Shown here: piece after piece, positions 23,118 to 38,314 of the stretch
Numbering within the stretch: position 1 is the stretch's first letter
How the letters are laid out: every line of letters starts with the position of its first letter
Notes under the pieces: model-generated
Databases searched by the model: none
Told to the model about the DNA's origin: nothing
What the model saw: only the letters and a program-made list of their open reading frames with translations
Translations under genes and position numbers: made by a program
NCBI RefSeq assembly: GCF_003172875.1
Contig: NZ_QGKM01000076.1
Span: forward strand, 1-64,000
Reading direction: 5' to 3'
Length of the DNA: 64,000 nucleotides
From: Leucothrix pacifica
GTDB taxonomy: Bacteria > Pseudomonadota > Gammaproteobacteria > Thiotrichales > Thiotrichaceae

Positions 23118-24668
23118 TTATTCTCCATCCTCATCTTCGTCAACTTGTCCGGTTAAGATCAGTGCGCTGCTTACCAGTTGATGAACACTTACGATTTGAT
23201 CCATAGTAAAACCATAATACGGAATTACTTTGGTGAATTGCGATTTACAAATAGCGCAGATTGCCGCCATGTGAGTTACGCCGTGATTATCGGTAACATG
23301 CTTTAATGCCTGCATGCGAGGTTGAGCACCTTTGACCCGGATATCCATCAGGTCATCAGTCAGGATGCCGCCACCGCCACCGCAGCAGAAAGTCGCATCC
23401 TTGGTTGTATCGGCCGGCATATCCACATAGTTATTGCAGACTGCCTTAATAACGTTTCGCGGCACATCGAACTGGCCGCCCTCTTCCTCACCCATACGTG
23501 AACCACGTGCCACATTACAAGAGTCATGGAAGGTAAGTGTCATGTCGTCGTTTCGTGACTTATCAATATTGAGCTTTCCATCGCGTAGTGCCGGCCAGGT
23601 AATTTCCAGCACATGCTGAGGAACCGGGTAACGCTGATCCAGAAAATCAAACGGCCCCGCGAGTGTGTTTAAGAAGCTGTAAGCCACACGCCATGCATGA
23701 CCACATTCTCCAAACACAATTCGTTTTACTCCTAAGTCCTGAGCGGCTTTACGAATACGCATCGATATCTTGCGCATATTTTCGTAACTACCGATGAACA
23801 TACCGAAGTTGGCACCTTCAGAGGCGTAGGAGCTTAGTGTCCAACTCAAGCCCAACTCGTGGAAGACTTTGGCATAACCCATCAATCCATCGACATGAGG
23901 CTCAGCAAAGAAATCAGCTGAAGGTGTAATCAGTAGAATATCAGCGCCATGTTGATCCAGCGGCAACTTAACAGGAACGCCAGTTTCATCTTCGATATCT
24001 TCTTCAAGGCCTTCCAGTGTGTCGGCTAAAGCAGCTTGGGGTAATCCCAGATTGTTGCCAATCTTGTAGACTTTACCCATGATCTCGGTACAGTACTTCT
24101 GACCGCGACCAATATGATTCAATATCTCTCGTGCAGCCATCGAGACCTCTGCAGTGTCTATGCCATATGGGCAGAACACGGAGCAGCGACGACACTGCGA
24201 ACACTGGTGGTAATAGTTGTACCAGTCATCGACCACTTCTTCAGTCAGATCGACCGCACCCACCAGCTTTGGAAAGTATTTTCCCGCAAAGGTAAAGTAA
24301 CGGCGGTACACTTTTCGTAGCAAATCCTGACGTGCCACCGGCATATTCTTTGGATCAGAAGTGCCGATGTAATAGTGGCACTTATCCGTACAGGCTCCGC
24401 ACTTCACGCAGATATCCAGATACACTTGTAACGAACGATAACGTCCCCGCAAGTCATCTAATTTATTCAGTGCCTCTTCTTTCCAGTTCGGAATCAGCGA
24501 CCAGTTGCCGTCTTCATCTTGCTCAATGTCCGAAGGAAAATTCATTCCCTCCTGAAACTCAGGCTTAGAAATATAAGGCCCTTTACCAACCATGGTATCC
24601 GGAACCAGCGCGGGTACATCGACCAAGCCATCATCTGATGACAATTCTGGTGTTTCATAATCAGCCAT
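23118..24668 (-). CDS. dsrK: DsrK, HdrD-like Fe-S subunit of DsrMKJOP
   Basis: 516 residues from the ATG at 24668, which has AGGAGG 8 bp upstream; a longer frame begins at 24707 without a site. Two [4Fe-4S] motifs are CVKCGACTDKC and CSQCRRCSVFCPYG. The C-terminal CCG-type region has FCCGGGGGI and a preceding GECGHAWR, which in HdrB/HdrD-like proteins bind the catalytic noncubane cluster. It is the proposed site of DsrC disulfide or trisulfide exchange on the cytoplasmic side of the complex. Confidence 0.94.
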   Translation of the reverse strand: MADYETPELSSDDGLVDVPALVPDTMVGKGPYISKPEFQEGMNFPSDIEQDEDGNWSLIPNWKEEALNKLDDLRGRYRSLQVYLDICVKCGACTDKCHYYIGTSDPKNMPVARQDLLRKVYRRYFTFAGKYFPKLVGAVDLTEEVVDDWYNYYHQCSQCRRCSVFCPYGIDTAEVSMAAREILNHIGRGQKYCTEIMGKVYKIGNNLGLPQAALADTLEGLEEDIEDETGVPVKLPLDQHGADILLITPSADFFAEPHVDGLMGYAKVFHELGLSWTLSSYASEGANFGMFIGSYENMRKISMRIRKAAQDLGVKRIVFGECGHAWRVAYSFLNTLAGPFDFLDQRYPVPQHVLEITWPALRDGKLNIDKSRNDDMTLTFHDSCNVARGSRMGEEEGGQFDVPRNVIKAVCNNYVDMPADTTKDATFCCGGGGGILTDDLMDIRVKGAQPRMQALKHVTDNHGVTHMAAICAICKSQFTKVIPYYGFTMDQIVSVHQLVSSALILTGQVDEDEDGE

Positions 24669-24779
24669 GACTGCGCCCTCCTGATACTGACCCATCGCAC
24701 AAAACACGATGACTCGTTACTAATCCGAACAAATAACTGCGACTAACAGATCCGACATTTACACCACTGCTGAACATCT

Positions 24780-25538
24780 TCATTTTTTAAGCTCACTGAT
24801 GTAGTCAACATTCTGCTTATCCAGCTCTGCGGCCCACGGCGCAATATGACGTTCTTCACGTGAGTTATCGACCTGATTACGACTCGGACTAAAAAATACA
24901 CCCGGCGCATGCAGCAGCTTACTAATCGGGAATATCATCATTAACAACACGACCGATGTCAGATGTAGCAGCAAAGTAAAATCAGCAGGCAGTGGTTGCC
25001 AGCTAAAATACTTAAGACCCTGGAAGAATGCTTTCACCATCACAATATCGGTGGGGTTCACAAACTTCATCATCAACCCACTGACACCAATCACCAGTAG
25101 TAATACCAGCATTAAGTAGTCAGAAGGTGCCGAGATGTAACGCACCCGATCTATCACTACGCGCCTTGCCATTAGGCCTAATAAGCCGAGAACCAACCCA
25201 AAACCTGCATACAAGCCGAACGGCTGAATGAAGCCAATGATTCCCCATACCGGATCAAGGAAATAGCGTAAGTGACGTAGCACGATCAACAATAAGGAAT
25301 AGTGAAAAACTATTGAGATCGCCCATAATAATTTGTCAGCACGGAAAAGGCTTTGAAACAAAAACACTTCCCGTGCCATCCGCCAGGCCACACCCTGTTT
25401 AGTGAGTGGGGCCGGCATCGTTGGAATCTTCAGAGGTGCTGGTGTATTCCAGTACAAGCGAAGCTTGTTAGCGACGCCTAACACTAATATCAGCGTTGCC
25501 GCCCAGAACAATAAACCGTAAACAATTCCCAGAAACAC
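24780..25538 (-). CDS. dsrM: DsrM, NarI-like cytochrome b subunit of DsrMKJOP
   Basis: 252 residues with five to six membrane helices. Histidines in helix contexts (IVFHYSLLLIVLRHLRYF and LLLHLTSVVLLM) are candidates for the two b haems, as in NarI. It links DsrK to the quinone pool. Separated from dsrK by about 110 bp, a longer gap than elsewhere in the operon; no terminator is seen there. Confidence 0.93.
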   Translation of the reverse strand: MFLGIVYGLLFWAATLILVLGVANKLRLYWNTPAPLKIPTMPAPLTKQGVAWRMAREVFLFQSLFRADKLLWAISIVFHYSLLLIVLRHLRYFLDPVWGIIGFIQPFGLYAGFGLVLGLLGLMARRVVIDRVRYISAPSDYLMLVLLLVIGVSGLMMKFVNPTDIVMVKAFFQGLKYFSWQPLPADFTLLLHLTSVVLLMMIFPISKLLHAPGVFFSPSRNQVDNSREERHIAPWAAELDKQNVDYISELKK

Positions 25539-25582
25539 CCTTGATTCTCCCCTTTCGGTTGATTAGTTAAATGACCTAACGA

Positions 25583-25915
25583 TCAAACACAACCTGTTGG
25601 CTTTGGCAGACCAGCATACTTACACGCTTGCTTACCAGGACCATATGGGAACAATGAGTACAGATACTTAGAGTTACCTTTTTCCTTACCCAAACGTTTA
25701 CCTACTGCTTTGGTTAGTACACGTACTGCCGGAGCAATCTGGTACTCTTCGTAATACTCACGCAGGAAGTTGATAATATCCCAGTGCTCATCTGTCAGCT
25801 CAACGTCTTCTTCAGCAGCCAGTGCTGTAGCCACATCAGCGTTCCATGAACCAAGATCTACCAGATAACCTTCTTCATCTTGCTCGTAAGTTGTACCATT
25901 AATCTCGAGTGCCAT
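25583..25915 (-). CDS. dsrC: DsrC sulfur-carrier protein
   Basis: 110 residues. The flexible C-terminal arm has both conserved cysteines, Cys98 and the penultimate Cys109 (KPTGCV), which marks a true DsrC rather than TusE. It receives sulfur from DsrEFH and presents a persulfide or trisulfide to DsrAB and DsrK. The gap of 42 bp before it and 44 bp after it would allow its own promoter, though none is evident. Confidence 0.96.
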   Translation of the reverse strand: MALEINGTTYEQDEEGYLVDLGSWNADVATALAAEEDVELTDEHWDIINFLREYYEEYQIAPAVRVLTKAVGKRLGKEKGNSKYLYSLFPYGPGKQACKYAGLPKPTGCV

Positions 25916-25957
25916 TAGCGCTCTCCTTCTTCTCTATTGTTTAAATAAGGCTGACTT

Positions 25958-26266
25958 TTATAACCAGCTTTGTGTTGTGTCGTTATCCACAGTCAGATCA
26001 ACAAATCCTGCATAATCAACCGCTGTAACGCCTGTTATTATACGATCTTCACTCAAGCCGCGAGCGGCTAGATCACCAGACAATACATAAACAGACTTAT
26101 CTTTTAAGGCCGCCTCAATACTCTCTGAAAAGCGTGTATTTTTTACCGCACCTACCGCTGCATCTTCGATCATCAGAATCGAGTCACCAGCTGATGCATG
26201 ATTTAAACAAGACTCAAACGCTACGCGTTCAAACGGCGACTTGTTTACAATATGTAACATTGCCAT
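25958..26266 (-). CDS. dsrH: DsrH, TusB-like subunit of DsrEFH
   Basis: 102 residues of the TusB/DsrH family, starting MAMLHIVNKSPFE. The single conserved cysteine is Cys20 (ESCLNH). AGGAG lies 8 bp before the ATG. With DsrE and DsrF it forms the hexameric sulfur transferase that passes sulfur to DsrC. It starts 11 bp after dsrF. Confidence 0.92.
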   Translation of the reverse strand: MAMLHIVNKSPFERVAFESCLNHASAGDSILMIEDAAVGAVKNTRFSESIEAALKDKSVYVLSGDLAARGLSEDRIITGVTAVDYAGFVDLTVDNDTTQSWL

Positions 26267-26277
26267 ATCAAATTCTC

Positions 26278-26682
26278 CTAGAAACTGATGACGACTTCTT
26301 GTTGAGCCATGATGCCCGCCATATCCGCACGATCTACCAAGTGGATAGATGGCTTCTCTTCGTAGTCATCATCTTCATCTTCCCACGTCAGATCCATTAG
26401 ATCGTCAAGGGTCAGACCACGCTCTTCCAGTGACTCTTTCTCAACATAAAGCTTGTTGATTTCGTAATCACCCAACGCTTTGTAAGTCGCTGAGAAGTTC
26501 TTCTGGCCAATGCCTGTTGTATCCTGTCCTTTAGCGATTTGGTAAACACCATCATCGATGAACGCCAGTGATACATCCTGCTCAAACGCCGCTGAGATCA
26601 GCACGACTTCCAGAGACTCCAGCGCATACACTGTGCCATAAGGAGCCTTGCGATTTACAAACATGAATTTCTTAGTTGCCAT
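26278..26682 (-). CDS. dsrF: DsrF, TusC-like subunit of DsrEFH
   Basis: 134 residues of the DsrE-like fold, recognised by KKFMFVNRKAPYGTVYALESLEVVL and a FIDDGVYQ segment. It has no cysteine, consistent with its structural role in the DsrE2F2H2 complex. It lies 12 bp after dsrE and 11 bp before dsrH. Confidence 0.92.
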   Translation of the reverse strand: MATKKFMFVNRKAPYGTVYALESLEVVLISAAFEQDVSLAFIDDGVYQIAKGQDTTGIGQKNFSATYKALGDYEINKLYVEKESLEERGLTLDDLMDLTWEDEDDDYEEKPSIHLVDRADMAGIMAQQEVVISF

Positions 26683-26694
26683 GTCGCGCTCTCC

Positions 26695-27087
26695 TTAGTC
26701 GCCAAATACAAGTGTGCGGTCAGCCTGGATACCACCTTCAATCAGCTGACCCAGACCCGAAATACGGAAACCTTCAATGATATTATCGGCATCCATCCCC
26801 TGACGTTTCGCTTCATCAGCATCCATCAGACCACGGCGCTGAGCCGCGGCAATACAAATAACCAAATCAAGATCATGCTGCTTAGCAAGCTCTGACCACT
26901 CCTTCTGGATCTGACGGTCATCCTGAGGAGGAGCACTCAAACGTGTTCCGTTATTCACACCATCATGGTAGAAAAACACACGATAAATCTCGTGCCCTTT
27001 CTCCAGAGCCGCGCGTGCAAACTGCAGAGCAGTGTCTGAGGACTGGTGCTGATACGGCCCCTCATTAATCATTAACGTATATTTCAT
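26695..27087 (-). CDS. dsrE: DsrE, TusD-like sulfur-binding subunit of DsrEFH
   Basis: 130 residues. The sulfur-binding residue is Cys78 (LVICIAAAQRRG), the same position as in the characterised DsrE of Allochromatium vinosum. The start KYTLMINEGPYQHQ and the YHDGV segment are typical of TusD/DsrE. It accepts sulfur from upstream carriers and passes it to DsrC within DsrEFH. It starts 15 bp after dsrB. Confidence 0.94.
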   Translation of the reverse strand: MKYTLMINEGPYQHQSSDTALQFARAALEKGHEIYRVFFYHDGVNNGTRLSAPPQDDRQIQKEWSELAKQHDLDLVICIAAAQRRGLMDADEAKRQGMDADNIIEGFRISGLGQLIEGGIQADRTLVFGD

Positions 27088-27102
27088 CAGTAAACCTTCC
27101 GA

Positions 27103-28191
27103 TCAAAAACGGATATGCGTTGAAGAGTTCAGATTGTTTCGTGCACCGCGCCAGTTATCAATGTGATATTTCGTAAATGGCAGCCCGGTTACCTCAAAGA
27201 AACGAGGCCAGCCGATACGCTCAACCCACTCATTCATACGCTCCCAATCACGTCCACCTTCTTTGTAGCACTCCAGAATTTTCTTCACGACCGCAGTCGC
27301 TTCTGGCCAGCGTGGTGGGTTATTTGGGATACCTGCAGCTACTAAACGCTGGAATGTTGGCTTACCACGCGCATTCGAGTGATTACCACCGATCCAGATT
27401 GCTAATTGCGTGTACTGATGATCGTTGATCTGCATTGGCGGGCATGGTGGATAGCACGCACCACAACAAATACACTTCTTCTCGTCGACTTCCAGCGACG
27501 GCTTACCATCAACCATGGCAGGACGAATCGCTGCAACAGGGCATCGCGCAACCACCGATGGACGCTCACAGACATTACCAACCAAGCTATGGTCAATTTT
27601 AGGTGGCTTAGTGTGCTGTACATTGATCGCAATATCACCCTGACCACCACAGTTAATCTGGCAGCAAGAGGTTGTCATGTGTACACGGTTAGGCATGTTC
27701 CAGCTTTTGAATTCGTCATAGAACTCATCCATCATCGCCTTCACAACACCTGATGCATCCGTTCCAGGAATATCACAGTGCAACCAACCCTGAGTGTGTG
27801 ACATCGACGTAATCGAGTTACGCGTCCCACCCACCGGGAAACCGGCATCTTCCAAGGCAGCAACTAAAGGCTGCACTTTAGATTCATCGTCCGTCTGGAA
27901 CTCCATGTTAGAGCGAATAGTGAAGTGAATATATCCATCAGAATACTGATCGCCAATATCCATTAATTTACGCAGTGTGAATACATCCAAAATACGTTGA
28001 GTACCACAGCGAACGGTGTAAATTTTCTCGCCAGAGTAAGCGACATGAACCAACACACCAGGCTGAACATCTTCATGATATTTCCACTGGCCGTAGTTAC
28101 GTCGCATGGTTGGGTGCATATATTGAAAACCGTCCGGACATCCTGACTCGATCGGTTCACGCATCACTTTTTTTGCTGCTGGAGCTGACAT
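27103..28191 (-). CDS. dsrB: reverse dissimilatory sulfite reductase beta subunit
   Basis: 362 residues. The sirohaem/[4Fe-4S] region TTSCCQINCGG and NVCERPSVVARCPV is intact. A ferredoxin domain with CICCGACYPPC follows, and the C-terminal part ends NLNSSTHIRF. DsrB carries the catalytic sirohaem in known DsrAB. In this operon (with dsrL and dsrEFH) the enzyme should work in the oxidative direction. 59 bp separate it from dsrA. Confidence 0.97.
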   Translation of the reverse strand: MSAPAAKKVMREPIESGCPDGFQYMHPTMRRNYGQWKYHEDVQPGVLVHVAYSGEKIYTVRCGTQRILDVFTLRKLMDIGDQYSDGYIHFTIRSNMEFQTDDESKVQPLVAALEDAGFPVGGTRNSITSMSHTQGWLHCDIPGTDASGVVKAMMDEFYDEFKSWNMPNRVHMTTSCCQINCGGQGDIAINVQHTKPPKIDHSLVGNVCERPSVVARCPVAAIRPAMVDGKPSLEVDEKKCICCGACYPPCPPMQINDHQYTQLAIWIGGNHSNARGKPTFQRLVAAGIPNNPPRWPEATAVVKKILECYKEGGRDWERMNEWVERIGWPRFFEVTGLPFTKYHIDNWRGARNNLNSSTHIRF

Positions 28192-28250
28192 TTAATGATT
28201 CCTCAATTCTGTATCGATAGCTGTTAAACGACTGTTATACTGTCGAATTA

Positions 28251-29513
28251 TTAGCTCGCCATCTTCTGTTCACGCACACGGTTGAACCATTCTTCCGCCG
28301 CTTCATCCCAACCATCTGTTCTGACATAAGAGCTATTACGCGGCTGCTTAATCATATTTGGATCTGGGTCAATGCCGACACCTTCCAGGAAATTAACCAG
28401 ACCGATACGCTCGATCATCTCACCGCAACGCTCATGCTCCAGACCGTTTTCAGCCCAGTAGTCGATAACTTCTTCCGCCATCTCTACTAACTGCTCATAA
28501 TCTTCTTCGGTTTCCAACTTCATGAATGGAACAATTACCGTACCCATTAAGTCACCGATTTTCAGCGTACGCTTACCACCCATTAAGATAGTGACACCTT
28601 TATCGTCACCCGGATGAATCGCTTTAGGTACTACGTTCATGCAATGCATGGAGCGAACACAATTGGTCTCATCAGCAATCAGTGAATTATCATCACCCAA
28701 AGACAAACTCTTTGACGTACAACGTGAAATCACATTATCCATCACATGCTCACGTCCCTTCTCCGCAACGTATGCTTTCCAGGCTTCCTGATCGATTTTC
28801 TTGTGGTCACGCCATGTTCCGATCACCGCGAAGTCAGAACGCTCAATGGCATTCATGCAGTCATTCGGGCAGCCAGACACTTTAAACTTAAACTTGTAAG
28901 GCAGTGCCGGACGGTGAACATCATCCGTAAAGTTGTTTAGCAATGTGCGATGAATGGCCTGCTCATTACAGTTAGACATCTCACAACGCGCCGCACCCAC
29001 ACAAGACATACCGGTACGAACACATGGGCCTGCACCACCTAAATCCCAACCGTACTCATTGATCTCATCAAAAAAGTGCTGGTAGCTGGCAGAGTCGGAA
29101 CCGATGAACATGATGTTGCCTGTCTGACCGTGGAAAGTCTGAAGGCCTGAGCCCCATTTTTCCCAGCTATCAGCCAGTTGGCGTAACATGTCTGTCGTAT
29201 AGTAGTTACCCGCAGGTGGCTGCACACGCAGCGTATGGAATTCTTTTGACTCAGGGAATTTATCACCCACTTCCGAGAAACGAGGAATAATACCACCACC
29301 GTAACCGAACACAGAGATGGTTCCACCTTTCCAGTAACCCATACGGGTTTCATAAGAATGTTCTAACTGACCTAGAAGACCATTGTTTACGTTACGGATA
29401 CGCTCATCTGGATGATCGTCGCGCAGTGCTTTTATGCCTGAAATAAAACTAGGCCAAGGACCGTCTTCCAGAACATCCAACATCGGCGTTGGATACTTCT
29501 TCATTTCAGCCAT
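28251..29513 (-). CDS. dsrA: reverse dissimilatory sulfite reductase alpha subunit
   Basis: 420 residues. The family motif GYWKGGTISVFGYGGGI is near the N-terminus. Sirohaem/Fe-S cysteines lie in CVRTGMSCVGAARCEMSNC and SGCPNDC. In the inserted ferredoxin domain the cluster reads NCVRSMHC, with Ser where a CxxCxxC pattern would put a middle cysteine. AGGAGG is 6 bp before the ATG. First gene of the operon, so the promoter should lie in the 197 bp before it. DsrAB oxidises DsrC-bound sulfur to sulfite. Confidence 0.97.
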   Translation of the reverse strand: MAEMKKYPTPMLDVLEDGPWPSFISGIKALRDDHPDERIRNVNNGLLGQLEHSYETRMGYWKGGTISVFGYGGGIIPRFSEVGDKFPESKEFHTLRVQPPAGNYYTTDMLRQLADSWEKWGSGLQTFHGQTGNIMFIGSDSASYQHFFDEINEYGWDLGGAGPCVRTGMSCVGAARCEMSNCNEQAIHRTLLNNFTDDVHRPALPYKFKFKVSGCPNDCMNAIERSDFAVIGTWRDHKKIDQEAWKAYVAEKGREHVMDNVISRCTSKSLSLGDDNSLIADETNCVRSMHCMNVVPKAIHPGDDKGVTILMGGKRTLKIGDLMGTVIVPFMKLETEEDYEQLVEMAEEVIDYWAENGLEHERCGEMIERIGLVNFLEGVGIDPDPNMIKQPRNSSYVRTDGWDEAAEEWFNRVREQKMAS

Positions 29514-29710
29514 GATATGCCTCCTGAGTATGAATATGGTTAGTGCTTTTAAACTATGCCGACTAGTGTATTTTGCTTGCTGGTTTCAGAGAATCCCCTT
29601 CATGGGATGGCGCTATTTTTAGCGTATACCCCAAAATGGATAGATACCCTTTCGATCAAATTTACTTACCATGATTAACGCCTTCCCAACTCTGGAAAAC
29701 AATCGAACTC
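29514..29710. promoter_or_regulatory. divergent control region between dsrA and a TauD-type dioxygenase
   Basis: This gap must hold the promoters of the dsr operon (minus) and of the dioxygenase gene (plus). A small inverted repeat at 29612-29625 (CGCTA, 4 nt, TAGCG) sits about 100 bp from the dsrA start and 85 bp from the dioxygenase start, a reasonable operator position. No convincing sigma-70 -35/-10 pair was found on either strand. Confidence 0.5.
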
Positions 29711-30580
29711 ATGGAATTTTTTCCTGCCAAACTAAACGACCAAAATTATCTGAAATGGCGCGAGCAAAAACTGACGTCAGCCAACCGAAGTGCGCAGTCT
29801 AGGCTAATTCACCTAAAGAATGCAGCCTCCCTTAGAGATAGTGAACGACTTTCTATTATTACCGATTGTCTACACCATAATTTCGCCTTGTATCAATTTG
29901 ATGATCCCTCTCAAAACGAAAAGTCAGCCGTACACCACTTTGCGAAACAAGTTGGACTACACTCACTGGACGGGAATATCTGTGCGGATCAGGACCAACT
30001 GACTTCCATCACGGTGACCAAGCACAAGGGCCAACACGACTATATTCCTTATACACCTAAGAAACTCAGCTGGCATACCGATGGTTATTACAATACTAAG
30101 GAACGGCAAATTAACGGCATGTTATTGCATTGTGCTAATCCGGCTTCTCAAGGTGGTGAGTCGTGGTTAATGGATCATGAGCTGATTTACCTACTCCTTC
30201 GGGATGAGAACCCGGAATACGTAAATGCTTTGTTTGCTGAGGATGCCTTGACTATTCCAGCCAATATTATTGATGGTGAAGTGATTCGACCTGCTCAAAC
30301 CGGACCCGTATTCTCTATCACAAACAATGGGCGACTGCACATGCGTTACAGTGCGCGCTTGCGGAATATTGAATGGAAGGATGATCCTTTAGTCACTGAA
30401 GCAACTGAATTCTTACAGCAACTTTGGAAGGATGGTAGCTACTTCATTGTTAAACATACCTTACAAACAGGTCAGGGAGTGATTTGTAATAACGTCCTGC
30501 ATTGCCGAACAGCATTTGAAGATGATTCCGAAAACAATCGCTTGCTGTTTCGTGGGCGGTATTACGAAGGTATCTCCTGA
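29711..30580 (+). CDS. TauD/TfdA-family Fe(II)/2-oxoglutarate dioxygenase
   Basis: 289 residues. The iron triad is suggested by HTD in LSWHTDGYYN and a distal His in VLHCRTAFED, with Arg in RLLFRGRYYEG as the 2-oxoglutarate contact. The N-terminal third (about 1-100) is less conserved. It is transcribed divergently from dsrA. The family attacks small molecules such as taurine, betaines or sulfonates; the substrate is not predictable here. Its position suggests a link to sulfur metabolism, which is inference. Confidence 0.8.
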   Translation: MEFFPAKLNDQNYLKWREQKLTSANRSAQSRLIHLKNAASLRDSERLSIITDCLHHNFALYQFDDPSQNEKSAVHHFAKQVGLHSLDGNICADQDQLTSITVTKHKGQHDYIPYTPKKLSWHTDGYYNTKERQINGMLLHCANPASQGGESWLMDHELIYLLLRDENPEYVNALFAEDALTIPANIIDGEVIRPAQTGPVFSITNNGRLHMRYSARLRNIEWKDDPLVTEATEFLQQLWKDGSYFIVKHTLQTGQGVICNNVLHCRTAFEDDSENNRLLFRGRYYEGIS

Positions 30581-30690
30581 TTCCATTTCTATAAGTACTC
30601 CAGACTAAACCCCGCTTTAAATAGACATACTTGCACTTACACAAGTGCCGATTCACCATATAATCAGGAACGACTTTTATTGGATTCTTG

Positions 30691-31194
30691 ATGATGAAAA
30701 CGCTTCACACGATTTTTTTTCTATGCCTGATAATACCGTTGATAAGTATTGCTGACTCCCACAAAGCTATTATCAGTAAAGCCAGTGGTGAGGTGGTTGA
30801 TAATATTACTGCCCGCGGCACTGGAGGCACGTCACCTTTTGATGGCACGGTAGACAATAAATCTGACTTGGATGGTCTTGTGAAGCTTGCCTGGGGCGAT
30901 GGTTGGTTAGGACTTCACCGTGGCCACGCCCCCATTGAAGAGGTATTAAAGGCGTTCCTAGGCATCAGCCATGAAGAAATGCATGTTTTGATGGAAGACC
31001 ATGACCTAAATCTGGCGAAGACTTGTGAGTATTTTGGTTTTGAACCTGAAAATCTGATTGCAAGTTTGACGGCTAGTTTTGTACCGCTGGTCAAACAAGG
31101 TACTGAAAATGGTGTGATCAACGCTGATGAGGTTGAAACCTGGGTAGAGAAGATTCAAAGTGAATTTCGCAGGCGGGTTTATTGGGAGGGGTAA
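30691..31194 (+). CDS. secreted protein of unknown function
   Basis: 167 residues from the ATG at 30691 (a second ATG follows directly). The signal peptide is KTLHTIFFLCLIIPLISIADS. The mature part has a Gly/Thr-rich start, a segment GDGWLGLHRGHAPIEEVLKAFLGI and a C-terminal helical half with NLAKTCEYFGFEPENL. It is not recognised. It is followed at 31195-31541 by a gap that contains at most one doubtful small frame. Confidence 0.6.
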   Translation: MMKTLHTIFFLCLIIPLISIADSHKAIISKASGEVVDNITARGTGGTSPFDGTVDNKSDLDGLVKLAWGDGWLGLHRGHAPIEEVLKAFLGISHEEMHVLMEDHDLNLAKTCEYFGFEPENLIASLTASFVPLVKQGTENGVINADEVETWVEKIQSEFRRRVYWEG

Positions 31195-31228
31195 TAATTG
31201 CCTATTCCTGTTTGTGCACCAATCTGAG

Positions 31229-31426
31229 ATGAACACGCACTATAAAGCCTCATTACGACACGCTTATCTACAAGCACTTGCTCGGAGATGCATGGGGTCA
31301 CTCATTGCTTGGCTTAGTTTTAATCGCAATACTGTCTACTACCACGTATTTTCTGGTGAGCCTGAAGCTGATGAGATAACAATGCTGCAAATGTTGTATC
31401 AACGATATGGAACAGCGACAGCCTGA
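31229..31426 (+). CDS. doubtful small ORF in the gap before the di-haem cytochrome gene
   Basis: 65 codons from the ATG at 31229, with Arg-rich and hydrophobic stretches and an acidic segment GEPEADEITMLQMLYQRYG. The frame extends upstream into the previous gene. No ribosome site or family is recognised. The segment could be a small protein gene, a decayed gene remnant, or chance. The remaining 115 bp up to 31541 show no other feature. Confidence 0.25.
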   Translation: MNTHYKASLRHAYLQALARRCMGSLIAWLSFNRNTVYYHVFSGEPEADEITMLQMLYQRYGTATA

Positions 31427-31541
31427 CACTTCGGAGTCTGAACAACAGAGCTAGCATAACCGAGCCATTCTCTATTCTAAAGATACCTTTCACATCGCGA
31501 TGCGTTATTATCTCGTATCTGTGAGGAAATGAGGAACCACT

Positions 31542-33611
31542 ATGAGCAACGCTAGCAAGCCACCCGGTATGATCAAACGTTTCATTACATCGGTTTGGTC
31601 ATGGTTGTTACTGCTGCTCATCATTGCTGGCTATGTCGCTCTCACTATAAAAACCACGATCGATAATACCGGTTACATATTAACTCCCCCCGGGTTACCG
31701 CTCTACCAAGCTACCAGCGAAGCCAATACCATCCACTTAAACCCGACGGGTTGGCCTGATAAAAGTTCGCAAGCATACCGCCATAGTTCAGTGGGTGCTG
31801 CGACAATTCCAATCCCCTATTCATGGCTGTTGGCGCTTGAATCCCCCAAACAAGACCCGCTTAGGTTGCTCTCCGGAAAAGAGCCATTATTTGTCGATGA
31901 ATATCTGCCCCGACTGGGCTTTATCAAACAGAAAAAGACAGCCAGCAACCCTAATGGATTACCAATCGGCCTTACTAAAACACCCAATGTTTACTTTCCG
32001 GGAATAGACAGAAAAGACACCGCAGCAGGCTTTAACTGTGCTGCTTGCCACACTGGCCAACTCATTCATGGTGACACTCGCTATATCGTTGATGGTGCCC
32101 CTGCAAATATCGACTTTGGCCTGCTAAACCAAACCTTAGGAGCAGCGCTGGCTCAAACCGTTATCTCTGCGAAAGTGCCTGTTTATAACGACCGCTTCTC
32201 ACGATTCGCAGAGCGTGTATTGGGTAATAATGACAACCGATTATCCCGCCAACAATTATCCGCAGCACTGAGTAAGACCGTTCGTTTTATGTCCGAGGCT
32301 CAGGACAGTATCGAAGTTACCGAAGGATTTAGCCGACTGGACACTATGAACCGTATTGGCAACCAAGTCTTTGGTCACGCCATGCAGCGGAGCGAAAACC
32401 ACACTGCGATCAATGCACCGGTAAACTTCCCACACCTCTGGACAACCCCTTGGTTCAACTGGTTGCAATACGATGGTTCTATCATGCAACCACTGGTTCG
32501 CAACACGAGTGAAACTCTGGGCACAAAAGCCTACCTCGATACACAAGGCCCTGCTGAACAGCGTTTCGCAACGTCTGCCGGTATATCTGACTTAGTTAAA
32601 ATGCAGAATTGGCTGGCAGGTAAACACCCTAAACGTAATGACAACACATTCAACGGCTTAAGTGAGCCAACATGGCCCGAGACTTTCCCCGCCATTGATA
32701 AAGAAATGACCGAAAAGGGAAAAACGCTATACCAGCAGCACTGCCAAGAGTGCCATCTGCCGAGCGTTGATTCCGATGAGTTTTGGGAAGATAAAAACTG
32801 GCAAAAGATTACCTATGTCAGTAAGTTAAATACCATCACACAAACGCCTGACAGCTACCTAAAGCTGAATATCGTTCCCTTATCAGTGATTGGGACTGAT
32901 GCAGCACAAGCTGAGGTAATGGCAAAACGCACGGTTGATACCACAGGACTCAATCTAGCCACTCAAGTATGCACACCCGCCAAGTCGGTAAACTCAACGA
33001 TTACCTATGCCTCAGCGTTTGCTGGTATGGATGATATTCCGGCGGATATGACTGTGCTCAGGCACGTACCATTTAAGGATAGTGCAACAGCAAACTTTGG
33101 ACTGGCACTGGGCGCAGTCGTTGACCAAACCAATCAGCAATGGTTTAAGCAGAACCACACACCACGAGCGGAGCAAGCAGGACTCGAGGGCAATCGACCG
33201 AATTGCTTGCAAGTTGGCAAAGGCTATAAAGCCAGACCGTTAAATGGCATTTGGGCAACCGCGCCCTTCCTCCATAATGGCTCCGTCCCTACACTCTATG
33301 ACTTACTATCACCTCTGGAAGATCGACCTGACTTTGTACAACTAGGCAGCCATCACTTCGATGCCGGAAAAGTAGGAATTCAGCAGGATGAATCCTTAAA
33401 TAAAAAGCTGATAGCGCAACAAAGTGCTTCTCATTCACTAACACCGGATTATAAGGATGGTCTTTTCATTCTGGATACACGACAAGCCGGTAATCGCAAT
33501 ACAGGACATGTATTTGATGATGAGGAAACAGAGTCAGTATCTGGCATTATTGGGCCAAAGCTCACTGAAGAGGAAAAGTTGGCGCTGATTGAGTATCTGA
33601 AAAGCCTTTGA
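31542..33611 (+). CDS. di-haem c-type cytochrome, RoxA/MauG-like
   Basis: 689 residues. One N-terminal membrane helix (about 13-33) acts as anchor or signal. Haem sites are CAACH at 166-170 and CQECH at 401-405. The segment LHNGSVPTLYDLL (about 575-590) is typical of the large di-haem proteins related to rubber oxygenase RoxA and, more distantly, MauG and bacterial cytochrome c peroxidases. GAGGAA precedes the ATG. It is periplasmic by signal and haem type. The substrate is unknown, and a true rubber-cleaving role is unlikely without further evidence. Confidence 0.75.
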   Translation: MSNASKPPGMIKRFITSVWSWLLLLLIIAGYVALTIKTTIDNTGYILTPPGLPLYQATSEANTIHLNPTGWPDKSSQAYRHSSVGAATIPIPYSWLLALESPKQDPLRLLSGKEPLFVDEYLPRLGFIKQKKTASNPNGLPIGLTKTPNVYFPGIDRKDTAAGFNCAACHTGQLIHGDTRYIVDGAPANIDFGLLNQTLGAALAQTVISAKVPVYNDRFSRFAERVLGNNDNRLSRQQLSAALSKTVRFMSEAQDSIEVTEGFSRLDTMNRIGNQVFGHAMQRSENHTAINAPVNFPHLWTTPWFNWLQYDGSIMQPLVRNTSETLGTKAYLDTQGPAEQRFATSAGISDLVKMQNWLAGKHPKRNDNTFNGLSEPTWPETFPAIDKEMTEKGKTLYQQHCQECHLPSVDSDEFWEDKNWQKITYVSKLNTITQTPDSYLKLNIVPLSVIGTDAAQAEVMAKRTVDTTGLNLATQVCTPAKSVNSTITYASAFAGMDDIPADMTVLRHVPFKDSATANFGLALGAVVDQTNQQWFKQNHTPRAEQAGLEGNRPNCLQVGKGYKARPLNGIWATAPFLHNGSVPTLYDLLSPLEDRPDFVQLGSHHFDAGKVGIQQDESLNKKLIAQQSASHSLTPDYKDGLFILDTRQAGNRNTGHVFDDEETESVSGIIGPKLTEEEKLALIEYLKSL

Positions 33612-33798
33612 AAAAACTCCGATGAGATTCACAGCAAGAAAAATCCGCCGATTATGACGCTCAGACTTTACTCAGACAGTCATAGGGACTGATTACCAGA
33701 CTCTGTATTAGTGATCATTCTCAATGGTGATATTTCTCGGCAATATAGTCAGTGCTATGATAGAAAAAACAATCACCCATGGTTAGAGACCCGACCCT

Positions 33799-33996
33799 AT
33801 GCTAGTACTCAGTGAAGTCCTTCTAAAAGAAGGTCACAACGTAAAATCCTTTGAAGAACTGGTGACATTAATCCAGCGTATTGCAGTGGAAAACGGTGAA
33901 ATTCATTTTGAGGTAGACATCGAACCACCGGCTTATTCCGATCGCCCACACGAATGGCATGATCAGCTCAATCTCGCTTTTGAGTCAGCGCGCTAA
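33799..33996 (+). CDS. small protein upstream of the Cas6-like gene
   Basis: 65 residues, not recognised. It is soluble, with an N-terminal helix and an acidic middle (NGEIHFEVDIEPP) ending FESAR. It ends 8 bp before the Cas6-like gene, so the two are very likely cotranscribed and may act together. The 187 bp upstream have no gene; they presumably hold the promoter. Confidence 0.6.
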   Translation: MLVLSEVLLKEGHNVKSFEELVTLIQRIAVENGEIHFEVDIEPPAYSDRPHEWHDQLNLAFESAR

Positions 33997-34004
33997 GGAT
34001 CATC

Positions 34005-34694
34005 ATGTTCTGGGAAGAAGAGGAAGACAAAACACTGCCCTATCAGGCACCGGATGACATTGTCGATGTGTTGTTTGCATTGAAATGTAAAACGCTGCCA
34101 CTGGATCACGCCTGGGCATTATCAGAAGCACTCCAGACTCAACTCCCATGGATTAAAGACGATGAACAACTAGGCATTCATCAAATTCATGTCGCAGAAA
34201 GCGCTAATGGCTGGATGCGCCCGGATGATTCGGAACGCGAACTGCTGTACCCTTCCCGCCGCACTAGACTCTCATTGCGTCTGCATAAAAATCGCCTGAC
34301 AGATATCGAAGCCCTGAGCGGTCAAACCCTGAGTATTGATGGGCACAGCTTAACAATTGGCAGCATGAAAACGAAAGCGTTAATCAATGCCAGTGTGATT
34401 TTCTCTCGTTATGTCGCCTCAGATGCCACTGAATCAGAAAATGACTTTCTAATGCGCATGTCAGATGACATCTTTCAACTTACATCCGTTAAAGTGAAAA
34501 AAATGATGTGCGGAAAGTCTCATCACATTCAAACCCCAAGTGGCGCACTACACACCCGTCATTTAATGATCGCTGACTTAGACAGTGAGCCATCCATTAC
34601 TATCCAACAATATGGCTTAGGCGAGCATCGTAAACTCGGTTGTGGCCTGTTCCTTGCACACAAAGGCATCAAATCACTCAAGCCCAATGAGTAA
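34005..34694 (+). CDS. stand-alone Cas6/Cmx6-like RAMP protein
   Basis: 229 residues. The C-terminal segment GEHRKLGCGLFLAHKGIK is the glycine-rich loop of the Cas6/Cmx6 type (type I-MYXAN Cas6). An earlier LYPSRRTRLSLRLHK and the helical N-terminal third, with DVLFALKCKTLPLDH, fit the same family. Cas6 proteins bind and cut CRISPR repeat RNA. No CRISPR array and no other cas gene is present in the window. Instead it lies among small genes and a DsrC-like gene near the dsr operon, so it may process or bind another RNA. Family assignment is by pattern recognition. Confidence 0.6.
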   Translation: MFWEEEEDKTLPYQAPDDIVDVLFALKCKTLPLDHAWALSEALQTQLPWIKDDEQLGIHQIHVAESANGWMRPDDSERELLYPSRRTRLSLRLHKNRLTDIEALSGQTLSIDGHSLTIGSMKTKALINASVIFSRYVASDATESENDFLMRMSDDIFQLTSVKVKKMMCGKSHHIQTPSGALHTRHLMIADLDSEPSITIQQYGLGEHRKLGCGLFLAHKGIKSLKPNE

Positions 34695-34870
34695 TGAGTA
34701 ATGAATAATGAATACTTCTTGCGATCCATATAAATCAGCATCGTCAACACAAGCAGACCTCTGAACAAGCTTGTCGTTATTTATTAACTACCCCCTTCGG
34801 GAAATAGCGATAGCATGATACTCACCCCTATAATTTGACCACTAGTGAAAGTATCGATGAGGAAACATTC

Positions 34871-35209
34871 ATGGCTTACGAGGTTAATGGTAAATCCATT
34901 GAAACAAACGATAACGGCTATCTGCTAGAGGTAAACGATTGGGATGAAGCGGTGGCTGAGGCAATCGCTGCTGAGGAAAGTATTGAACTAACTGAAAAAC
35001 ACTGGGATGTACTAAAGTACCTTCGTGATCAGTTCATCAACAATAATGGTAACCAGCCGAATGAGCGCACCATCGTAAAAGATATGAAAGATGTTTGGGG
35101 AAGCAAGCCTTCAAGTAAGGATATGTATCAACTATTCCCGGGCATGACCAGCAAGCAAGGCGGCAAGATTGCCGGCCTACCGGAAAGTCGTCGTAAAGGC
35201 GGATATTAA
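34871..35209 (+). CDS. DsrC/TusE-family protein lacking both C-terminal cysteines (RspA type)
   Basis: 112 residues from the ATG at 34871, with GAGG 8-9 bp upstream. The frame is open further upstream but without a site. The sequence follows DsrC closely (VNGKSIETNDNGYL, LTEKHWDVLKYLRDQF), but the C-terminal arm reads GKIAGLPESRRKGGY, with no cysteine. It cannot carry sulfur as DsrC or TusE do. Cysteine-less members of the family have been grouped as RspA and proposed to be regulatory. True dsrC lies 9 kb away in the same window. Confidence 0.88.
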   Translation: MAYEVNGKSIETNDNGYLLEVNDWDEAVAEAIAAEESIELTEKHWDVLKYLRDQFINNNGNQPNERTIVKDMKDVWGSKPSSKDMYQLFPGMTSKQGGKIAGLPESRRKGGY

Positions 35210-35232
35210 TCCCTTGGCACAGGAGCCTCCAA

Positions 35233-35427
35233 ATGGATGAGCGTAAAGCAGAATTAATTAAAGAAATGTTAGAGATGCAGGCAAAATTCACTGCCCATGA
35301 GCAATCTGGCAAATTTTCTCCCGAAGATTATTACGTCGGTGAGTGGAAAGAATACCGTGACCGCTACACAGAAATCGCAAGTGAGGTACGTGAAATTGCC
35401 TCAAAGGAAGCAAATTTCTGGAAATAA
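35233..35427 (+). CDS. small charged protein after the DsrC-like gene
   Basis: 64 residues, all soluble and strongly charged, predicted to be two helices (MDERKAELIKEMLEMQ and YRDRYTEIASEVREIA). AGGAGCC precedes the ATG. It starts 23 bp after the cysteine-less DsrC gene, so cotranscription is likely. Not recognised. Confidence 0.65.
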   Translation: MDERKAELIKEMLEMQAKFTAHEQSGKFSPEDYYVGEWKEYRDRYTEIASEVREIASKEANFWK

Positions 35428-35476
35428 GTATCTTATAAAGCGTCCGTCAGATCCAACTCTGAGTCATTAGGAGTGA

Positions 35477-36145
35477 TTATATTTCACTCCACATTCTGAG
35501 TAGATTGGAATAGACCTGATCAAGTCTGGCTTTCTCAGCATCGTTTTGAGAGGTCAGACTTTCGCGTATTTGGGAGATATTAAATAGCATCTCTCGTTGC
35601 TCCGTCGCTTTAACCATACTTTGTGCCCAAGTCACTGCCACTAAACGCTCACCGGCTGTTACCGCTTTCACCTCATGCAAACTCCCGGATGGGTAAATCA
35701 CTGCATCACCTGCCTCCAGCTTTACCAATTCTTCACCGTATTGAGTGTGAATCAGCAACTCACCACCGTCATAATCATCAGGAGAATTAAGGAAAATTGT
35801 CGTCGACACATCACTGCGATATCGTCCTGTTATCGGGCCCATGACAGCATCATCGACATGAGCACCGTAACGCATTCCCTGTTGGTATCTTGAGTAAAAT
35901 GCAGTCGCGACTTTTAATGGCAACACTGCTGCCTGGTACTCACTATGATTGACAAGAGAGGACATCACTAACTGATTTAACTGCTGATGTAACGGACTTT
36001 GCAAAGACAATTCCCGATTATGTTTTACACCTGCCGCTAAACTACCCGCTGACAAACTTCCATCGACAAATATTGCCCCATCAAGCAAGCTTTGAGCCTG
36101 CCTGACAGCACGGTTAGTCAGCACATTTTTGATCCTTAAAATCAT
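35477..36145 (-). CDS. PKHD-type Fe(II)/2-oxoglutarate hydroxylase (PiuC/YbiX family)
   Basis: 222 residues. The iron site is HVDDAVMG plus a distal His in PSGSLHEVKAVTAGERLVAVTWAQS. This last segment and the length are typical of PiuC/YbiX. The family is often linked to iron uptake through TonB-dependent receptors, but no such receptor is nearby. It is convergent with the small gene at 35233 and divergent from the one at 36226. Confidence 0.88.
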   Translation of the reverse strand: MILRIKNVLTNRAVRQAQSLLDGAIFVDGSLSAGSLAAGVKHNRELSLQSPLHQQLNQLVMSSLVNHSEYQAAVLPLKVATAFYSRYQQGMRYGAHVDDAVMGPITGRYRSDVSTTIFLNSPDDYDGGELLIHTQYGEELVKLEAGDAVIYPSGSLHEVKAVTAGERLVAVTWAQSMVKATEQREMLFNISQIRESLTSQNDAEKARLDQVYSNLLRMWSEI

Positions 36146-36225
36146 TATAGTTAACCTTAGTTTAGACTGTTTTATTTAGCCGATGTATTTAGTAGAATCG
36201 CACACCACGAAGAAGAGGAAATAAG

Positions 36226-36546
36226 ATGAAACTGACTGTTTTTATCGATGAAGAACAACATGATATAGATATTCCTGACTTTATTCTGAGTGAAGCGAAA
36301 GACTACTTTGACATGATGGATAAAGACATGGATCAAGGCTACCAAATGAGCCGAAGCTGGGTTGAAAACCCTGACTTATTCCAGCGCTGTCAAATCGCTG
36401 GCGACAAAATTCTGACCGCAATTCAAACCGAAAACCGTGAAACTTCAGCACTTATGGCTGGCTATATTTTATCGCGTGTGCCACAAGCTAAGACCCTTTA
36501 TCTTACACAAAACGGTGATATGACCGAGCACGATTTAGAAACTTGA
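36226..36546 (+). CDS. small soluble protein of unknown function
   Basis: 106 residues, acidic, no signal or membrane segment. GAAGAGGAAATAAG precedes the ATG, a good ribosome site. The sequence starts KLTVFIDEEQHDIDIP and includes DMDQGYQMSRSWVENP. It lies between two oxygenase genes on the opposite strand, and its stop codon abuts the stop of the prolyl-hydroxylase-like gene. Not recognised. Confidence 0.65.
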   Translation: MKLTVFIDEEQHDIDIPDFILSEAKDYFDMMDKDMDQGYQMSRSWVENPDLFQRCQIAGDKILTAIQTENRETSALMAGYILSRVPQAKTLYLTQNGDMTEHDLET

Positions 36547-37122
36547 TTATCGGAAAGTTATCCATGTGGTAGCTATATATTTTACGCCACTCACCATCTC
36601 AACAGCCCGATGCTCATGTGTCCAAAACGGTGGAAACAAAATCATCTTTCCTTTTTCGGGCGTCACCTTCACTCCCTGATGCAAAAACTCAGTTTCCCCA
36701 CCCGGCCCGGCCACATCATTTAAATACCACAATGCCACTAACTGCCGCGAGGCTAAGTCATTATTATCCGCATCAACATGCCAATGGTAATACTCACCGG
36801 CTTCATAACGTTGTAGATTGTATCCCATATCCTTAAAACGGCGCATATCCTGAAAGAAGGGGTAGCTTTGTTGAAATTCTCTTATCGCCAAACCAAGCGA
36901 ACGAAATAAATTGTTATCGACATCTTTCCAATGCGCTTTACCACTGACGACTAAGTCTGTGGTCTTCTTTAGCTGCTGGTTTTGACCAACATTAGAACCC
37001 ACTCTTCCCTCGTATTGTTCTTCACGGTGAGACTCAAACCGTTCAACCATATTGTCACAAAGAAATCCCGGTAGGGCATTGGGGATAGAATAGATAAAAC
37101 TATTGGGTTTCAGTTCTGTCAT
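36547..37122 (-). CDS. 2-oxoglutarate/Fe(II) oxygenase, prolyl 4-hydroxylase-like
   Basis: 191 residues. The iron site is HVD in YHWHVDADNN, with a distal His in PPFWTHEHRAVEM and a 2-oxoglutarate-binding basic residue in GVKYIATTW. The jelly-roll core lies in the C-terminal two thirds, with LVALWYLND and GGETEFLHQ. It is tail-to-tail with the gene at 36226. The likely substrate is a protein or small molecule; not predictable. Confidence 0.85.
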   Translation of the reverse strand: MTELKPNSFIYSIPNALPGFLCDNMVERFESHREEQYEGRVGSNVGQNQQLKKTTDLVVSGKAHWKDVDNNLFRSLGLAIREFQQSYPFFQDMRRFKDMGYNLQRYEAGEYYHWHVDADNNDLASRQLVALWYLNDVAGPGGETEFLHQGVKVTPEKGKMILFPPFWTHEHRAVEMVSGVKYIATTWITFR

Positions 37123-37173
37123 GGATCAAAAATCCTTTATAATTAGACTCATAGTCATCTAGGAGCTTAAACC

Positions 37174-37767
37174 ATGCGCATCAGAATCAAAACCCGCTGG
37201 AGCAAAGAAAACCGTGAAATTTCGGTGGAAGATTCAATTAGTGTATTGGCGTTTAATAGCTGGAAAATTGGCATGCAAGCCTTGCTGGAAATCGAAAACC
37301 AAGATTTTGACATTGACCATCAAATGCAACGCATTCAGGTACTCGAAGAAATTTCAGCCTTTATGATTCAGTCTGTTGATCGCATGATTCATGGTACTAC
37401 CAGTGATGAAGACCGCGCCGAAATCATTACTTATTACGCAAAGAAAATGGCTGATCATGTCCATGAAAATGCCCGGGATTTTGGAGATCTTGATGATTAT
37501 CGCTCACCATTTATTCACAAACTCAATGACCGCTTCCCGGCTTATGCTGAGACTAAATGGAATGAAGATGACGACGAGCCAGGATTTTCTATGAGCCGTG
37601 AATTCGCGACAAATGTTGCGGCGGTACTGGGAGATCGCGACCGCAAATGGGCACTGGATTATATTCAACAGGTTTTATTGCCAGACTTTTTCCCCGTTTT
37701 CAAACGCACCATTAAGTCCATTGGCCTGATTGAAGACAGAAAAATGCCCGAACAAGCCGGGCATTAG
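37174..37767 (+). CDS. soluble protein of unknown function
   Basis: 197 residues, no signal or membrane segment, mostly helical, with an acidic loop WNEDDDEPGF near the C-terminal third. TAGGAG lies about 10 bp before the ATG. Not recognised. Its last codons form half of a terminator hairpin that serves the opposite strand. It belongs to the block of small unknown genes that alternate with two oxygenase genes. Confidence 0.65.
   Translation: MRIRIKTRWSKENREISVEDSISVLAFNSWKIGMQALLEIENQDFDIDHQMQRIQVLEEISAFMIQSVDRMIHGTTSDEDRAEIITYYAKKMADHVHENARDFGDLDDYRSPFIHKLNDRFPAYAETKWNEDDDEPGFSMSREFATNVAAVLGDRDRKWALDYIQQVLLPDFFPVFKRTIKSIGLIEDRKMPEQAGH
37738..37764 (-). terminator. intrinsic terminator of the META-domain gene
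   Basis: 7-bp stem (37744-37750 with 37758-37764), 7-nt loop. On the minus strand it is followed by TTTTTCTG. It overlaps the last codons of the plus-strand gene; on the plus strand the T-run is weaker. Confidence 0.75.
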
Positions 37768-37795
37768 ATCTTTCGTTTTATTACTGATTAAGCCA

Positions 37796-38314
37796 TTACA
37801 GCTTAGTCATTACTAAACCTTCTTTACCATTACGGTCGTAGAATACCAGCGTTCCTTCATCAGTCTGCTGCACGCTACCCATGCGACGCATAATACGTAG
37901 GTATGAACCTTCGATATTGCCCAAGTGAATAGTTGGCTTTCCTTCACCCTGGCTAACAACCATACACGGCTCACGCGTACGATCGATCTGTGAAATAACA
38001 AAGCCAGTTGCACCGATCTGCTTAAATTTAGCAGCATATTTATTACAACCTGTATCACCTGTCATTGTGTCCAGGTTTACTGTCATCGACAACGTCACAG
38101 GCGTAGGAATCTTGTTACCGTAGGTCTCCGATACTCTCCACTTAGTACCCAATAAAGACGGTCCACCACTGTTTAGCGGGCAAGATTGTGTTTCACGATC
38201 AGTAATACCATCCAGCTCTTCATCTGCAGCATAACTTGCTGAGGAAACTAAAAGTGCTGTTAATGCGCTAATCGCATAAAAATTTAATGTTTGTTTCTTT
38301 CCGTTGGCTTTCAC
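37796..38314 (-). CDS. secreted META-domain (HslJ-like) protein
   Basis: 172 residues from a GTG at 38314, chosen because AGGGAGG lies just upstream and a clean signal peptide follows (LTALLVSSASYA). The open frame upstream to 38479 is AT-rich noncoding-like sequence. The META pattern is GTKWRVSE, then MTGDTGCNKYAAKF, then a later Cys in REPCMV. HslJ-like proteins are tied to envelope stress and novobiocin resistance in E. coli; the role here is unknown. Confidence 0.7.
   Translation of the reverse strand: MKANGKKQTLNFYAISALTALLVSSASYAADEELDGITDRETQSCPLNSGGPSLLGTKWRVSETYGNKIPTPVTLSMTVNLDTMTGDTGCNKYAAKFKQIGATGFVISQIDRTREPCMVVSQGEGKPTIHLGNIEGSYLRIMRRMGSVQQTDEGTLVFYDRNGKEGLVMTKL

Follow-up and report, generated by a model that had tools for sequence, protein, structure and literature searches.

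A Cas6-family gene beside oxidative dsrA in Gammaproteobacteria: a candidate RNA-acting accessory of sulfur oxidation outside CRISPR

The 64,000-nucleotide stretch of a Leucothrix pacifica contig analysed here (hereafter the window) carries a gene for a Cas6-family protein, with a small gene just upstream, in a cluster that runs divergently from the dsr genes (Table 1). The neighbouring dsrA was assigned to the oxidative type because it adjoins dsrEFH and a dsrL-like gene. Two further genes of the window (30688-31194 and 31542-33611) separate the TauD-type dioxygenase from the small partner gene, which the dioxygenase directly precedes in many other loci. The gene following the Cas6-like gene belongs, like dsrC itself, to the DsrC/TusE family (PF04358), whereas it has no cysteine against the two of DsrC, cysteines having been counted in the window only.

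Table 1. Genes and features of the dsr-linked cluster in the window
Feature	Position	Strand	Remarks
dsrC proper	25583..25915	-	two Cys; C-terminus PKPTGCV
dsrB	27103..28191	-	
dsrA, oxidative type	28251..29513	-	divergent neighbour; typed by dsrEFH and dsrL-like neighbours
Conserved element before dsrA	29563..29632	-	GGGGTATA, CATCCCATGAAGGGGAT, then TTCTCT-17-TACACT; read as promoter/operator
TauD-type dioxygenase	29711..30580	+	PF02668, E 1.4e-20; first gene of the divergent cluster; 60/80 loci
65-aa acidic partner protein	33799..33996	+	pI 4.7; 8 bp upstream of the Cas6-like gene
dsr-linked Cas6-family gene	34005..34694	+	229 aa; active-site-type His35; glycine-rich loop 204-214
DsrC-family paralogue, zero Cys	34871..35209	+	PF04358, E 1.6e-32; downstream of the Cas6-like gene
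64-aa conserved cluster gene	35233..35427	+	47/80 named loci; no Pfam match
2OG-Fe(II) oxygenase	35477..36145	-	PF13640; 41/80 loci; far edge of the conserved neighbourhood

At least 533 loci were confirmed, and recurrence of the cluster was scanned in the 80 named ones that most resemble the window, so that counts out of 80 favour near relatives. Almost all are gammaproteobacterial (Thiothrix, Cocleimonas, Thiofilum, Thiohalobacter, Thiogranum and others); L131 and L145 bear wider taxonomic labels. A DsrC-family match was found in 67 loci, the 65-aa partner in 60 (tblastn), the dioxygenase in 60, dsrA in 54 and dsrB in 50. The usual order is dsrB-dsrA and then, outward, dioxygenase, partner, Cas6-like gene and DsrC paralogue, and dsrA is upstream and divergent in every one of the 54 loci that contain it. 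In the 26 loci lacking dsrA, the upstream DNA amounts to less than 3.5 kb in 15 and to more in 11. The DsrC-family match lies downstream of the Cas6-like gene in 57 of the 80 loci, three times on the opposite strand, and 10 of the 67 matches are taken to be the dsr-operon copy because they lie 5-6 kb upstream on the opposite strand.

The Cas6/Cmx6-like identity proposed for the 229-aa protein was borne out by both profiles and predicted structure. The protein matches Pfam PF09559 (Cas6; E 2.2e-57, 194.6 bits against a cut-off of 26.7) and NCBIfam TIGR02807 (cas6_cmx6; 114.7 bits against 98.85), PADLOC also assigns it to Cas6, and TIGR02807 is matched by all 40 aligned members (E <= 0.001). An AlphaFold2 model, for which 40 sequences from the window and the named loci served as input, reached a mean pLDDT of 85.6. 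Searched with Foldseek against the PDB, it first retrieved two chains of type I-B CAST Cas6 at E of about 2e-15 (8fcu_B, E 1.7e-15) and then many Cas6 proteins, and VIA gave Z 24.3 with an rmsd of 2.2 A for 198 residues against 8fcj_B and Z 16.8 against 5yi6_A; the predicted model thus has the double RRM/RAMP fold of Cas6. In a profile search, the 8fcj chain was the sole PDB-sequence relative below E 0.001. By profile and by fold, the protein belongs to the Cas6 family. An alignment of 100 rows (92 dsr-linked and 8 CRISPR-type, 94 of the 100 being different) places His35 in 92/92 dsr-linked rows and Gly204 and Gly214 in 100/100. In Cas6 proteins, a catalytic role belongs to a histidine that opens helix 1 and to a C-terminal glycine-rich loop. 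The CAST protein, although it provides the nearest solved structure (8fcj/8fcu, 23% identity), has an asparagine aligned to His35 and works for an RNA-guided transposon.

We compared the distribution of the gene with that of DsrA (E <= 1e-30) in a class set of 369 gammaproteobacterial genomes. PF09559 was found in 118 and DsrA in 119 (87 and 88 of 272 when counted by genus); 111 genomes have both, 7 the Cas6-like gene only, 8 DsrA only and 243 neither, which corresponds to a Fisher p of 7e-75, a statistic that ignores kinship. The two genes share one contig in 84 of the 111 genomes; 82 of these 84 pairs lie within 10 kb, separated by 641-4549 bp and divergent in 82/82, and the two exceptions are G170 and G385, with 41 kb and 517 kb between the Cas6-like gene and dsrA. 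In each of the seven genomes with the Cas6-like gene only, no more than 2.7 kb of contig remain in the direction expected for dsrA, so that these cases may reflect gaps in assembly or binning; a DsrA search of their other contigs also found none. Five of the eight DsrA-only genomes are less than 90% complete, and the remaining three (G171, G184 and G268) have completeness values of 94, 95 and 99%. A smaller order set gave PF09559 in 51 and strong DsrA in 46 of 63 genomes (42 both, 9 Cas6 only, 4 DsrA only, 8 neither; p 0.0016), with DsrA defined at E <= 1.7e-17 and a nominal completeness of 99% entered for 16 genomes of 91-100%. The original prediction had merely placed the gene in a sulfur-oxidation neighbourhood, and the link is far stronger than that claim.

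Across a phylum sample of 249 genomes, PF09559 occurs in three, all of them DsrA-bearing and one the window's own, and 47 of the 50 genomes with DsrA are without it, all 47 outside Gammaproteobacteria. The Dsr pathway can therefore run without the Cas6-like protein, and the pairing is a property of Gammaproteobacteria, not of the pathway itself: within this class the gene co-occurs with and adjoins dsrA as a component of the oxidative dsr locus would, whereas presence in the other DsrA-bearing classes was not found. As a side observation, the Cas6-like gene that lies distant from dsrA in the 1.4-Mb genome G170 (L183, 6779-7441) is divergent from an RNase III-like gene, followed by era-like and recO-like genes according to ORF reading.

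The 65-aa gene, which had been taken for a fixed partner, proved to be conserved, being present in 40 of 50 class loci by profile (a count that includes some genes fetched twice) as well as in the named loci counted above. Ten loci yielded no match; three of them (L063, L070 and L179) include about 0.1 kb or less of upstream DNA, whereas L181-L184 and L188 gave no partner although several kb of upstream sequence are available there. Neither Pfam nor NCBIfam yielded a family for the window's protein, and among 36 aligned relatives no Pfam family was matched by more than one. All 36 are acidic (pI 4.1-5.0) and share ten invariant residues (M1, S5, L21, D40, P43, P44, P50, W53, L57 and F61). The partner is modelled as three helices (pLDDT 87), for which the best Foldseek E against the PDB was 1.6, that is, no PDB match. 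The Cas6-like gene and the partner are retained together even in genomes of 1.0-1.1 Mb (L185, L186 and L190). Across 40 class loci, the two genes are at most 40 bp apart in 18 and 0.7-1.1 kb apart in 22; in four inspected loci the gap is filled by a conserved gene of 234-248 aa (L137 9253-9999, L150 9295-9999, L142 9259-9975 and L121 661-1368).

Where a small acidic gene directly precedes one with a nuclease fold, as in those 18 loci, the two could also be read as an antitoxin and an RNase-type toxin. We consider such a pair very unlikely and rejected it: the wider spacing in the other 22 loci, the fixed place of the gene and its single copy in 49 of 51 order genomes and 117 of 118 class genomes are not the mobile or patchy distribution expected of a toxin-antitoxin system. 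At E <= 1, plasmid matches were confined to 8 cyanobacterial records, and the sole phage match has an E of 0.6 and a coverage of 34%, which counts against a toxin-antitoxin pair and on which basis mobile cargo was likewise rejected.

The absence of CRISPR components around the gene held well beyond the window. A tblastn search with 22 cas proteins as queries (E <= 1e-4), covering the window together with 100 related loci, 1.49 Mb of DNA, detected no cas gene, and a repeat-array scan of the same DNA found no array; positive controls were recovered for 5/5 cas-gene loci and 4/4 array loci. At the genome scale, where a CRISPR link was scored by cas1 (E <= 1e-10) and not by arrays, cas1 was found in 43 of the 118 class genomes with the Cas6-like gene and in 78 of the 251 without it (p = 0.34). 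By these searches, the dsr-linked gene is thus neither near cas genes or arrays nor co-occurring with cas1, and its occurrence is independent of cas1, in support of the proposed life outside CRISPR. A correction is needed at the level of the window's genome, which has CRISPR-cas loci on three other contigs (C104, C63 and C57; L194-L196). The C104 array adjoins cas3-, cas5-, cas8-, cas7-, cas4- and cas1-like genes and is of type I-C by ORF reading, and the C63 array belongs to a locus that is type III-A-like by the same reading. C57 carries an array pair around cas1 and a reverse-transcriptase-like gene. Weaker cas1 matches occur on C78 and C81, and two Cas6 genes of family PF10040 are located at C63:25446 and C143:30020, the former within a few kb of the type III-like genes.

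Given these arrays, and the name that NCBIfam and PADLOC assign to the gene, the protein might process crRNA in trans for arrays elsewhere in the genome. The original prediction had itself named, as evidence against it, an array elsewhere with repeats cut by this protein; the first part of this is present, arrays lying on other contigs, but the Cas6 near the type III-like locus is of another family. The PF10040 proteins share the Cas6-family label with the dsr-linked protein but belong to a different Pfam family and are basic (pI 8.8 and 9.3). Type I-C CRISPR systems use Cas5, which counts against crRNA processing in trans. So does the lack of a cas1 match in 75 of the 118 class genomes bearing the gene, as do the presence of a PF10040 Cas6 close to the III-A-like locus and the position of the Cas6-like gene at dsr. 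With cas1 independence, a PF10040 Cas6 nearby and no cas gene or array at the loci, we rejected service in trans as extremely improbable.

The CRISPR-linked relatives differ from the dsr-linked form in several respects. In a quick tree, one branch (SH-aLRT 99) splits the 92 dsr-linked from the 8 CRISPR-type rows; because the root is not known, the ancestral side of this split is a matter of inference. Cas genes adjoin 7 of the 8 cyanobacterial plasmid copies, and His35 is present in 7 of the 8 CRISPR-type rows, namely all those that cover the region. The type I-MYXAN Cas6/Cmx6 proteins of these plasmids (L215-L221) have in common with the dsr-linked form the family name (TIGR02807), a DH motif with the histidine and the C-terminal glycine-rich loop, but they are encoded beside cas genes, are basic, are without an SGNGWxRP loop and fall on the other side of the tree. 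In the dsr-linked form, W70 of this loop is conserved in 88/92 and R72 in 84/92 rows, and W70/R72/P73 correspond to a gap in 8/8 CRISPR-type rows; residues 65-71 of the model, in the loop region, are of low confidence. The median charge of the dsr-linked proteins is -5.4 (n=92; -5.5 for the window's own) against +6 to +14 for the cyanobacterial CRISPR-type copies. Median dN/dS in 13 same-order genomes was 0.057 for the Cas6-like gene (61 pairs) and 0.047 for the partner (67 pairs), indicating that purifying selection is strong on both.

The acidic charge, where relatives are basic, and the new loop favour protein contact, and the charge also speaks against a simple RNA binder. One alternative is accordingly a protein scaffold, in which the Cas6 fold was kept, RNA work was lost and protein contacts took its place; it might, for instance, bind the DsrC paralogue or Dsr enzymes, and the 65-aa partner would then serve as a subunit. 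The conservation of the SGNGWxRP loop only in dsr-linked rows (low confidence in the model notwithstanding) and the DsrC-family neighbour agree with such a scaffold. Yet all 92 dsr-linked rows retain the histidine and the glycine-rich loop seen in CRISPR Cas6, which favours RNA work, and a pI close to 6 is nothing unusual in this genome, where 36 window ORFs of at least 220 aa, spurious ones included, have a median pI of 5.65. We regard the scaffold as rather unlikely, though worth keeping in view.

An RNA target was sought in the dsrA leader by folding and covariation, and none was found. What the leader does carry is a conserved element, whose class form reads GGGATA, about 17 nt, CACCCCATGGGTGAGG, TTCTC, about 17 nt, TAGACT. 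It was recovered in 51/53 dsrA leaders at E < 0.07 with a model built from 17 of those leaders, the E-values being small-set values. A rebuilt model applied to the window and 100 loci gave 54 hits ahead of dsrA, one ahead of a dsrE match and another close to the end of a locus. In DNA preceding dsrA from genomes outside the class (17 stretches), the element was not detected (best E 3.3). TTCTC- and TAGACT-like boxes stand about 17 bp apart, by eye in several rows and exactly so in the window, and for this reason the element is read as a promoter preceded by an operator and not as mRNA. It suggests a shared dsr activator in Gammaproteobacteria. The 50 of 53 leaders with a confident promoter element folded no more stably than controls (mean z -0.80 vs -0.48, n=50 each, p 0.21), the antisense mean z was -0.82, and the window's leader gave z +1.1. 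An Rfam search of window positions 24000-38000 returned no match at E <= 1. A hairpin in the dsrA leader was therefore rejected as the Cas6 substrate, as the element carries promoter-like boxes and the leaders fold like controls. In leader alignments of two clades, 3 of 13 (A4) and 5 of 28 (A5) pairs were compensatory, and small hairpins with compensatory changes are seen at columns 58-102 of A4 and at columns 28-79 and 151-182 of A5.

The reading that we prefer, with a probability of roughly 0.55, is that of a Cas6 that left CRISPR and was kept as an accessory of the gammaproteobacterial oxidative dsr locus, acting on RNA together with its partner. The accessory role is supported by family, fold, co-occurrence with DsrA, divergent adjacency, the recurring cluster, independence from cas1, selection and the separate branch; leaders no more structured than controls, the acidic charge, DsrA genomes without the Cas6-like gene, the two genomes in which it lies far from dsrA and loci without the partner count against the reading. 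By its sequence features, the dsr-linked protein is probably an RNA-processing or RNA-binding regulator. It would still recognise a small RNA hairpin and cut or mask it, and could in this way tune how dsr transcripts, or others of sulfur metabolism, are expressed or turned over; the acidic 65-aa partner might hold the RNA cleft or act as its gate, perhaps sensing the state of the DsrC pair. This mechanism is the weakest step of the preferred reading, and a pure scaffold seems to us less likely than a regulated RNA-binding protein or nuclease. The fixed place and the distribution point to vertical descent. A more specific scenario is put forward tentatively, the odds being somewhat against it: a single recruitment of an RNA-processing CRISPR nuclease, together with a new acidic partner, would have given rise to a dedicated RNA-based regulator of oxidative Dsr energy metabolism, passed on vertically throughout Gammaproteobacteria, reduced genomes included.

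In a search of open-licence PubMed Central papers, among them PMC5944118, PMC10952691, PMC5728499, PMC8889020 and PMC11406059, no link between Cas6 and dsr was found. NCBI models label such proteins as CRISPR-associated, and this name hides a gene whose occurrence in Gammaproteobacteria follows that of oxidative DsrA almost perfectly. If the protein does act on RNA, it would be an example of a nuclease taken from CRISPR and domesticated for use in energy metabolism, and it would supply a layer of regulation hitherto missing from a major pathway of sulfur oxidation. The Cas6-like gene also offers a simple genome marker and a target for gene deletion in culturable strains. Separately, a TIGR02807-named gene on a Gloeobacter plasmid (L214, 5974-6765), with no annotated cas gene within 12.6 kb, lies in an operon with PAPS-reductase-family and cupin genes.
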